A stretch of DNA of 6,677 nt. It comes from Nitrospinae bacterium RIFCSPLOWO2_12_FULL_45_22. Lineage in GTDB: Bacteria > 2-12-FULL-45-22. The notes beneath the pieces are model-generated. The model had not been told where the DNA came from. It searched no databases and worked only from the letters and a program-made list of their open reading frames with translations. Shown here one piece after another: positions 2,878 through 6,522 of the stretch (positions are counted from its first letter, which is position 1; each line of letters starts with the position of its first letter). The stretch covers positions 1-6,677 of the forward strand of contig MHDQ01000114.1 in NCBI GenBank assembly GCA_001803565.1, read 5' to 3'. Both the position numbers and the translations under genes were made by a program.

Positions 2878-3705
2878 ATGGGTGAATATGTTACCGTTAA
2901 TGGTCACAAGATATACTATGTCAAAAAGGGTGATAAGGGTGAACCTATTGTCTGTATCCACGGTATACCTACATCTTCTTTCCTGTGGCGCAAGGTACAG
3001 GAAAGATTAGCGGCTTATTACCAGACTTATGCCCTGGACCTATTGGGGTATGGTAAATCAGACAAACCACCAGAGGCAAAATATACTGCCACTGCCCAGG
3101 CTGAGGTCATTAAAGGTTTTATAGATGCCTTAGGTTTAAAAAAGGTAACTATTGCCTGCCATGATCAGGGCGGGGCTTTTGGTCAGGTCTTCGCTTGTAA
3201 ATATAACGATCGCCTCAACCACTTTATATTCATGAATGGTGTGGCTTATGACTACTGGCCCGTGATAGAAGTCAAGGCTATGGGCAAAATGATTGCTGCA
3301 CCGGATTTCTTTTTCCAGTTACCACTCTTTGAGATGATGCTCCCGCCCTTGCTGCGGGGAACGGCTTATAATAAGGCGGCATTCCCGGATAAGGTTGCCC
3401 GGGAATATATGGCCCCCTGGATGGGACTGGAAGGGGCTAAGGCACTAGTGCGGGTAGCCGCAGGTCCTTCTGAAGCAGAGACTATGGCTTTAGACCTCTC
3501 AAAGATTAAATGCCCGGCATTGGTCATCTGGGCACTGGATGATCCTTATTTGCCTTTTGAGATAGCTGAAAGATTAAAGCAAGACCTGGGAGGTCCAGTA
3601 AGGATCGCTACTATACCCGAATGTGGCCATTTCTTGCAAGAAGAAAAGCCAGAGGAAGTAGCAGCCATTATTCATGATTTCCTTACTGAATACTCCAAGA
3701 GATAA
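2878..3705 (+). CDS. Alpha/beta hydrolase with Asp nucleophile, haloalkane dehalogenase/epoxide hydrolase-like
   Basis: The 275-residue protein is a complete single-domain alpha/beta hydrolase with no signal peptide, so it should be cytoplasmic. The oxyanion region is HGIPTSSFLWR (28-38), and the nucleophile elbow is HDQGG with D96 as the likely nucleophile. The acid is probably D222 in WALDDP, and the base is H251 in ECGHF. An Asp nucleophile and the HGxPTSSxLWR motif place it near haloalkane dehalogenases and epoxide hydrolases, with a lid at about residues 125-205. Two halide-binding positions of classical haloalkane dehalogenases differ: the Asn after HG is I30, and the Trp after the nucleophile is Q97. 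A true dehalogenase is therefore uncertain, and an ester, epoxide or C-C bond substrate is equally open. An AGGAGG site (2863-2868) precedes the ATG by 9 bp, and a strong-looking promoter lies upstream. Confidence 0.9.
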   Translation: MGEYVTVNGHKIYYVKKGDKGEPIVCIHGIPTSSFLWRKVQERLAAYYQTYALDLLGYGKSDKPPEAKYTATAQAEVIKGFIDALGLKKVTIACHDQGGAFGQVFACKYNDRLNHFIFMNGVAYDYWPVIEVKAMGKMIAAPDFFFQLPLFEMMLPPLLRGTAYNKAAFPDKVAREYMAPWMGLEGAKALVRVAAGPSEAETMALDLSKIKCPALVIWALDDPYLPFEIAERLKQDLGGPVRIATIPECGHFLQEEKPEEVAAIIHDFLTEYSKR

Positions 3706-3709
3706 AGTA

Positions 3710-3776
3710 GTAACAGTTCACCGGGGTCAGGGATTAGTTGTCAGGCAGTCTTTTTCTGAACCCTCTGAACTGTTAC
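3710..3776. repeat. Long imperfect inverted repeat between hydrolase and radical SAM genes
   Basis: GTAACAGTTCA (3710-3720) is perfectly complementary to TGAACTGTTAC (3766-3776). Inside, after a 2-nt mismatch, GGG pairs with CCC, and after one more mismatch TCAGGGA pairs with TTTCTGA (two GT wobbles). The result is a 67-nt hairpin starting five bases after the hydrolase stop. No T-run follows the 3' arm, so it is not a classical terminator. It could be a small non-autonomous repeat (REP- or MITE-like) or an mRNA-stabilising or processing hairpin. Confidence 0.55.
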
Positions 3777-4968: not shown

Positions 4969-5877
4969 ATGAAAAAATTCTTTCTGATCACTTTGACTTG
5001 TTTTCTGGTTTTAGGCGTTGGCCTTGCAATGGCCCAGCAAGACTTTTCCAAAGTCGAAATCAAGGCATACCGTGTCCACGGTAATATTTACATGCTGGAG
5101 GGTAGCGGCGGTAACATCGGGGCTTCAGTAGGGCCTGACGGGATTTTGATAGTGGACGATCAATTTGCTCCGCTAGCGGATAAAATCCAGGCAGTCCTCA
5201 AAGGCATTGGTGGGGGTAGGCTAAAATTTATCCTCAACACTCACTGGCACTATGACCACACTGGCGGGAATAAAGTCTTTGGCCCTGAAGCCCCAATCAT
5301 CGCCCATACCAATGTACGGAAGCGGTTAATGACGGAGCAGAAGATTTTTGACCGGATTATACCACCAGAACCCAAAGATGCATGGCCTGTTATTACCTTT
5401 GACGCTTCTTTGTCACTCCATTTCAATGGTGAAGAAATTAAAATGATTCATTTCCCCCATGGCCATACCGATGGCGACAGCGTCATTTTCTTTACCCGAT
5501 CCAATGTAGTGCATATGGGGGATCATTTTTTTGCCGGTCGGTTCCCTTTTGTTGACCTTGGCAGTGGCGGCGATGCCGAAGGCCTGATCAAGAATGTTGG
5601 GGCGGTGATCCATCAATTTTCGGCTGATGTAAAGATCATTCCAGGGCATGGGCCACTTTCTACACTGGATGACTTAAAAACCTATCACCGGATGTTGATT
5701 GAGACTACAGATATAGTTCATCAGCGGATAGCAGCGGGGAAGAACCTTGAGAAAATAAAGGCCGAGGGCATGCCCGATAAATGGAAATCGTGGGGTTCCG
5801 GCTTCATTTCAACTGACCAATGGATCGAAATCATCTACCGGAGCCTCACAAAGAAGGATGTCACTCTTACACCATGA
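4969..5877 (+). CDS. Exported metallo-beta-lactamase-fold hydrolase
   Basis: The 302-residue protein starts with a Sec signal peptide: MKKFF, a hydrophobic stretch to about residue 20, and a likely cleavage site after AMA (22), before QQ. The mature protein should be periplasmic or exported. All five MBL metal motifs are present: HWHYDH (H92, H94, D96, H97), H166 in HGHTDGD, D185 in MGDHFF, and H227 in PGHGP. It therefore likely binds two zinc ions and hydrolyses an ester, amide, lactone or thioester bond. The loop features that would mark it as a true beta-lactamase are not evident, and such exported MBL proteins of about 300 residues have diverse or unknown substrates. GGGAGG (4957-4962) precedes the ATG by 6 bp. 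The last residues, KDVTLTP, may come from junction DNA, because recognisable gene structure ends near here and an unrelated truncated gene begins on the other strand. Confidence 0.9.
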   Translation: MKKFFLITLTCFLVLGVGLAMAQQDFSKVEIKAYRVHGNIYMLEGSGGNIGASVGPDGILIVDDQFAPLADKIQAVLKGIGGGRLKFILNTHWHYDHTGGNKVFGPEAPIIAHTNVRKRLMTEQKIFDRIIPPEPKDAWPVITFDASLSLHFNGEEIKMIHFPHGHTDGDSVIFFTRSNVVHMGDHFFAGRFPFVDLGSGGDAEGLIKNVGAVIHQFSADVKIIPGHGPLSTLDDLKTYHRMLIETTDIVHQRIAAGKNLEKIKAEGMPDKWKSWGSGFISTDQWIEIIYRSLTKKDVTLTP

Positions 5878-6104
5878 CATCCATCCATTAGATGCCCGAT
5901 GAAGCTATTCCCATCGAAGATGCCCAGAGGGATTACGCTCACCAGCGCAACAAATGCGGACATCCAGATGTACCACGGTTGCCATGAGTTTCTGCCAGGT
6001 AGTGGCCATATCCGCTTATCGGGTCTCACCAACGTAAATATCAGTGCTATTCCCATCAGGAGTTCACAGATAAGTATGACTGCAAATAGAAGTCCAGCGA
6101 TCAT
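5835..6104 (-). pseudogene. 5' remnant of an isoprenylcysteine methyltransferase-like membrane protein
   Basis: From an ATG at 6104 the minus strand encodes 89 residues. The first 26 form a transmembrane helix (MIAGLLFAVILICELLMGIA and on). Then come RIWPLPGRNSWQPWYIW (31-47) and a second hydrophobic segment ending GIFDGNSF. The RIWPxPGxNSWQxWYIW pattern with D.NSF is typical of the N-terminal half of the isoprenylcysteine carboxyl methyltransferase-like (ICMT/DUF1295) family, normally about 190-210 residues. The C-terminal half, which should hold the S-adenosylmethionine site, is missing. The frame instead runs into DNA antisense to the 3' end of the MBL gene and stops at 5835. It is therefore very likely a non-functional truncation. 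Only a weak AGGA is found 11 bp before the ATG. It directly follows the attC-like element, as a second cassette would. Confidence 0.6.
5856..5882. repeat. Perfect 8-bp hairpin spanning the MBL stop codon
   Basis: GGATGTCA (5856-5863) and TGACATCC (5875-5882) are perfect inverted repeats around an 11-nt loop, with the TGA stop codon (5875-5877) inside the right arm. No T-run follows on either strand, so it is not a standard terminator. It could act as a 3' end structure for both converging transcripts, or mark the rearrangement boundary between the MBL gene and the cassette-like DNA to its right. Confidence 0.4.
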
Positions 6105-6130
6105 TTTTGTTATTATCCTGGTGTGGCCCC

Positions 6131-6189
6131 TGACAACGCCTGAACTGTGCGGCAGACGATAGGCTGTCCGCACGAGTGATTTGTTATGC
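6131..6189 (-). other. attC-like site (59-base element) after the mazF gene
   Basis: On the minus strand a 59-bp element starts with GCATAAC (6189-6183, R''-like, consensus RYYYAAC with one mismatch) and ends with GTTGTCA (6137-6131, R'-like; GTT kept, the rest deviates). Between them lies an imperfect hairpin: ACT-c-GTGCGG-a-CAG pairs with CTG-CCGCAC-AGT. That is 12 base pairs, with two extra bases on the 5' arm only, like the extrahelical bases of attC sites, and a terminal loop CCTATCGT. The mazF stop codon TAA lies inside the R'' box and the next gene begins 27 bp after the element, the usual cassette layout. The poor R' match and the missing integrase keep this below certainty. Confidence 0.5.
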
Positions 6190-6522
6190 ACCTATTATTT
6201 CATTCAACCCTTCAATAACCCGATCCAATTCCTCTGGAGACGCCTTGCCAATCATTTTCCCAATCCTCTCAACGGAAAGCGTCCGAATCTGACTTATTTT
6301 GACCCATGATCGTTTGGGCAAATCCTCGGTTTTTAATTCAAGAGTAAGTGGAAAGCCTGCTCGTTGTGGTTGACTCGTAATAGCTACCGCAATAATAGTT
6401 CCAGAACGTTCATTAAAAATGTCATGACTTAAAATCAAAACGGGCCGTAAGCCTGCCTGCTCACGACCCCTCACCGGGTTCAAGTCAGCCCATCTAATAT
6501 CGCCCCTCAGTATTCGGGCCAT
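6184..6522 (-). CDS. mazF: MazF/PemK-family endoribonuclease toxin
   Basis: The 112-residue protein is full length for a MazF toxin, a cytoplasmic ribonuclease that cuts mRNA at short sequence motifs and is held inactive by its antitoxin. It begins with the family pattern [19 protein letters not shown], then [11 protein letters not shown]26 and the T49/S50 pair stand where the catalytic Arg and Thr/Ser of MazF are found. [16 protein letters not shown] and [12 protein letters not shown] are further family blocks. The start ATG lies inside the 3' end of the upstream antitoxin gene, with a 16-nt overlap, which suggests translational coupling. The stop codon TAA falls inside the R''-like box of the attC-like site. 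No frameshift or missing motif is seen, so it should be functional. Confidence 0.94.

Follow-up and report, generated by a model that had tools for sequence, protein, structure and literature searches.

The mazEF locus

The window, which is the whole stretch of DNA analysed here (6,677 nucleotides), makes up contig C114 of a draft genome bin of 3,667,056 bases in 321 contigs, 85% complete. As listed in Table 1, it carries a mazEF toxin-antitoxin pair, followed by a 59-bp attC-type element, a truncated methyltransferase-like gene and a convergent gene of the metallo-beta-lactamase fold (MBL), with which the chromosomal flank begins. The original prediction had already placed a toxin-antitoxin pair on one side of the element and a truncated gene on the other. 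Assignment of the toxin is to the fold family of PF02452, with the NCBIfam MazF models matching below their cut-offs. The contig end falls inside mazE, 488 bases from the attC element, and a full-length relative of this gene has been found at the Nitrospirota locus L025 (ORF 5768-6016), encoding an 82-aa ribbon-helix-helix-like protein. No second mazF copy was found in the host genome, nor any mazF in the same-order genome G001; a search of plasmid DNA gave no meaningful match, and no mazF relative was found among viral contigs.

On the other side of the element, the methyltransferase-like ORF matches plasmid methyltransferases over residues 4-69 only (tblastn, best E 4e-4), which puts the end of the similarity near 5898, some 20 bases short of the stop codon of the convergent MBL gene. 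The gene described as truncated encodes only the N-terminal portion of a methyltransferase-like protein and represents either a last cassette in decay or a chromosomal gene that has been broken. Elsewhere in the window, an intergenic repeat at 3702-3760 is 86-89% alike in contigs C136, C137 and C287 of the bin.

Table 1. Features at the mazEF end of the window, with strand and supporting evidence
Feature	Position	Strand	Evidence
Metallo-beta-lactamase-fold gene, convergent; chromosomal flank begins	4969..5877	+	PF00753
Truncated isoprenylcysteine-carboxylmethyltransferase-like gene, 5' part; next cassette or broken neighbour	5898..6104	-	tblastn
Probable attC recombination site	6131..6189	-	Model R1 match, 34.4 bits, with exact ends; homology boundary at GTT
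R' box GTTGTCA; last six bases are neighbouring DNA	6131..6137	-	Sequence; homology end at 6135
Bottom-strand attC hairpin, unpaired G6174 and T6167	6144..6177	+	Folding
R'' box GCATAAC, enclosing mazF stop TAA (6186-6184)	6183..6189	-	Sequence
mazF, PemK/MazF-like endoribonuclease toxin, 112 aa	6184..6522	-	PF02452, E 1e-30, above cut-off
mazE antitoxin, 5' end lost at contig end	6507..6677	-	Weak PF07704, E 0.016, below cut-off; L025 relative

Structure and scoring of the attC element

The element reads GCATAAC-AAATCACTCGTGCGGACAGCCTATCGTCTGCCGCACAGTTCAGGC-GTTGTCA on the minus strand, and can be parsed as GCATAAC AAATC ACTCGTGCGGACAGCC TATC GTCTGCCGCACAGT TCAGGC GTTGTCA. In attC sites the bottom strand folds better, with an extrahelical G and T. 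Here that role falls to the plus strand of the window, which folds at -12.4 kcal/mol (z -2.46, equalled by 3 of 200 shuffles), the minus strand being weaker against its own shuffles (z -1.30), and the stem bulges on one side only, leaving one G and one T of the plus strand unpaired; as in other attC, a spacer lies between the R and L boxes. Sequence and fold bear out the coordinates, length, hairpin and one-sided bulges originally given for the element, as well as the location of the mazF stop codon inside the R'' box. This box conforms to RYYYAAC; the R' box, as had also been noted, fits its consensus GTTRRRY poorly, agreeing only in GTTR, with one of the four bases after GTT fitting. The cut within R', expected for an integron between G6137 and T6136, leaves its last six bases to the neighbouring DNA. 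A weak R' box is for this reason expected, and the misfit is therefore no bar to attC membership. A scan against Rfam, which may or may not include an attC family, gave no match at the gathering score, nor at E <= 5 within 5900-6400.

In place of IntegronFinder, equivalent checks were made with an Infernal attC covariance model, R1, and the TIGR02249 integrase model. Candidate sites were gathered elsewhere in the host genome, on contigs other than C114, by a script based on R'' and R' boxes with complementary arms, and R1 was built from ten short aligned attC of these contigs, with the window site left out. The ten training sites share a hairpin built like that of the window element, in which seven pairs show compensatory changes. 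Applied to the window, R1 matches at exactly 6131-6189 with 34.4 bits (E 1.1e-5; runner-up 7.2 bits), as scored by a model whose training sites were chosen by the attC consensus and which is to that extent not independent of the attC idea; no second attC was found in a scan of the whole contig. Matches of at least 34.4 bits number at least 34 in the 3.67 Mb of the host, against at least 26 in about 178 Mb from 59 further genomes (a sum of rounded genome sizes, the 60-genome run having had stricter filters and a ceiling on candidates), and some of the latter are probably real attC. In 48 of the 60 genomes compared, no R1 match at E <= 0.01 occurs among the matches listed. A search with attC models had been suggested in the original prediction, and the score obtained lies far above background.

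Relatives of the mazEF cassette

The nearest relatives of this mazEF pair have the same attC after mazF. In BLASTN comparisons, the window shares 92.3% DNA identity over 543 bp with L025, from a Thermodesulfovibrionia bin (Nitrospirota), and 80% and 79% with loci L033 and L036, respectively, in alignments of about 540 bp. Homology with these three loci reaches as far as 6135, the third base of GTT, and with a further locus, L040, as far as 6137; over the 100 bases past the boundary, a loose alignment test shows no more likeness than shuffling gives. Sites that are 75-85% similar to the window element follow mazF at the four loci. A homology limit of this kind, at the GTT of R' where the cut is made, is the signature of a cassette boundary.

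Among 80 mazF loci, 33 have at least one R1 match, which indicates that the mazEF family is often, though not always, borne on cassettes. The R1-scored attC starts at the mazF stop codon in 12 of the 80, and an attC lies just upstream of mazE on the same strand in 11, so that relatives sitting between attC sites speak for the cassette reading as well. In most other relatives, similarity gives out at the stop codon or shortly past it, the site having been lost or never present. The L025 cassette (5768-6339), whose attC is the only one detected in 12 kb, is located next to aroE; that of L031 (5574-6390), also from a Nitrospirota bin, is next to ilvD and has an attC on both sides. Given these housekeeping neighbours, the cassette is not confined to large arrays. 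When 60 genomes were searched at the DNA level for the locus, only mazEF was recovered, without the MBL flank, and no empty site turned up.

Integrons in the host genome

The TIGR02249 search of the genome identified two full integron integrases, on C243 and C304 (467 and 439 bits, respectively, both above cut-off), as well as about ten integrase relics or fragments. The catalytic R, K, H, R, H and Y motifs to be expected of such an enzyme can be read by eye in the translation of the C304 integrase. Genome-wide, R1 detected 53 sites at E <= 1, and closer scans added two; the resulting 55 attC-like sites form 12 same-strand clusters, with spacings mostly of 0.4-1.3 kb, and 18 singles, some of which are explained by contig ends. 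Contig C304 is a textbook integron, with intI on the plus strand divergent from six attC on the minus strand between 90 and 3700, at which ORFs end. An integrase and further attC in the genome, both proposed at the outset as checks on the site, have thus been found: two intact intI and about fifty other attC, including the six of the complete C304 integron.

Contigs C304 and C261 have 168 bp in common at 98% identity, starting exactly at G^TT. This palindrome-rich stretch (C304:4074-4241, L106; C261:3588-3755, L116) is preceded by an attC in C261 and by an attI-like context in C304, so named from the G^TT junction alone, and may be a cassette without a gene, or else a small mobile repeat brought in by way of the integron. 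Degenerate intI genes with an identical internal deletion (residues 125-268 approximately) have also been observed at C136:20148-20653 (L108) and C317:8631-9136 (L110), being 83% identical over 596 bp, and the deleted gene has apparently been duplicated inside this genome. Only the 3' part of a degenerate intI is present at C287:14273-14513 (L111).

Host lineage and probable cassette transfer

In an RpoB tree, the host genome pairs with G001 (76% identity), and the two stand apart from nitrospirotan, thermodesulfobacteriotan and other rows; only this pairing is firm, the deep forks being open and the NC10 row unreliable. Among the 60 relatives, G001 is the only one that shares a rank below domain with the host, namely its order, and it also has a full intI. 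After this pair, the closest row is the nitrospirotan genome of L025, at 61%. Since the L025 cassette (92% DNA identity) is far closer than the hosts are, the comparison points to a movement of the mazEF cassette between phyla.

As of 2021, bacterial integrons had been reported from 14 phyla, with the host lineage not among them (PMC8618304). A literature search found no report of integrons in this lineage; an unlisted report is possible. The lineage accordingly appears to be undescribed for integrons, and the earlier suggestion to this effect agrees with the list of phyla, subject to that reservation. The range of integrons would in this way come to include a bacterial lineage set apart in the RpoB tree, of which both genomes compared have a full intI. 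The occurrence of the mazEF cassette with its matching attC in several phyla makes it a clean case in which to study cassette traffic between them and the role of toxin-antitoxin cassettes in the retention of single cassettes.

Interpretation

Judged from sequence, 6131-6189 is very probably a genuine integron-cassette attC of a mazEF cassette. The original prediction had allowed for a chance hairpin with attC-like boxes, to which the misfit of the R' tail and the moderate fold z-score would lend themselves, but the R1 E-value, the low background in other genomes and the homology boundary at GTT contradict chance. With similar sites also following mazF at L025, L033, L036 and L040, this explanation has been rejected as practically excluded. 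Scarcely more credible is an attC-like hairpin kept after mazF because it serves another purpose, for instance as a transcription terminator or an mRNA stability element. A hairpin with a conserved stem does follow mazF in several genomes; nonetheless, homology stops at GTT rather than where the stem ends, some mazF relatives lack the hairpin, and the element combines attC-type boxes with its R1 score. The hairpin has no T run after it and was not called by a terminator scan, on which account a terminator was rejected. It is also very unlikely that C114 is a stray contig from another organism, to which the integron context of the bin would not apply: the bin is a draft and a 92% identical cassette is found in a nitrospirotan bin, but the GC content of 46.2% is as in other contigs, the repeat at 3702-3760 is common to C136, C137 and C287, and the site would be an attC all the same.

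The surroundings of the cassette allow for two arrangements, both of which involve a real attC, so that their likelihoods overlap with that of the attC itself. In one, possible but on the whole doubtful, a solitary mazEF cassette lies at a secondary genomic site of the attG type, with the R' tail and the methyltransferase fragment being chromosomal. A single attC on the contig and its poor R' tail are consistent with this, as are the isolated L025 cassette beside aroE and the 18 single attC of the genome, in so far as contig ends do not explain them. However, some 27 bases separate R' from the methyltransferase start codon, as they would if another cassette followed; the side upstream of mazE is hidden by the contig end, and assemblies are often broken by attC repeats (PMC9024848). 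We lean, with some reservation, towards the contig being the edge of a cassette array. Of the cassette array or relic originally proposed, the genuine attC and the mazEF cassette are upheld by R1 and the homology boundary; as for the array, taken as at least two attC within 4 kb, one attC is present on a contig that ends 488 bases away.

With the window as the distal edge of an array, mazEF and its attC would be followed by the 5' part of a methyltransferase cassette whose end has been lost, and then by the chromosome. The bottom strand (the plus strand of the window), when single-stranded, would fold into the bulged hairpin, which an integron integrase, with intact copies on C304 and C243, could bind and cut within R' at G^TT. 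The mazEF cassette might thereby be excised as a circle, or inserted at attI, another attC or a secondary genomic site, and the attC may still be recombined in the host. The toxin-antitoxin pair would be expected to penalise loss of the cassette and so to have a stabilising role. It is conceivable, albeit unlikely, that the mazEF cassette family is a self-keeping traveller, which spreads across phyla in the form of an integron cassette, can settle singly next to housekeeping genes and, once the surrounding integron has decayed, is kept there by toxin-antitoxin addiction.

Comparison with known systems

The element resembles short attC (59-base elements) in its R'' and R' cores, length of about 59 bp, L''/L' stem, extrahelical bases on one strand and stop codon in R'', and differs from them in that its R' bases after GTT depart from RRRY and it is the sole site on its contig. 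Clusters of attC without an integrase are known as CALIN, with single attC set apart and a default threshold of two (IntegronFinder 2.0, PMC9024848). The window is similar in having an attC with no intI on the contig, but only one attC is seen, below that threshold, and intI occurs elsewhere in the genome. Insertion of cassettes at attG sites is reported to have been described by Loot et al. (2024, cited in PMC11023631). A lone cassette flanked by chromosomal DNA would present the same picture, and the window is a candidate for such a case, with no empty site found.

Toxin-antitoxin cassettes are described from sedentary chromosomal integrons such as the Vibrio cholerae superintegron (Iqbal et al. 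2015, cited in PMC8618304). The likeness lies in a two-gene toxin-antitoxin cassette ended by an attC, whereas the window is distinguished by mazEF with a ribbon-helix-helix-like antitoxin, a host from a deep lineage and a 92% identical nitrospirotan cassette. A literature search found attC, integron and MazF together, but not attC, integron, toxin-antitoxin and mazEF. An attC that ends a toxin-antitoxin cassette is a known kind of device, and what appears to be new is the lineage of its host.
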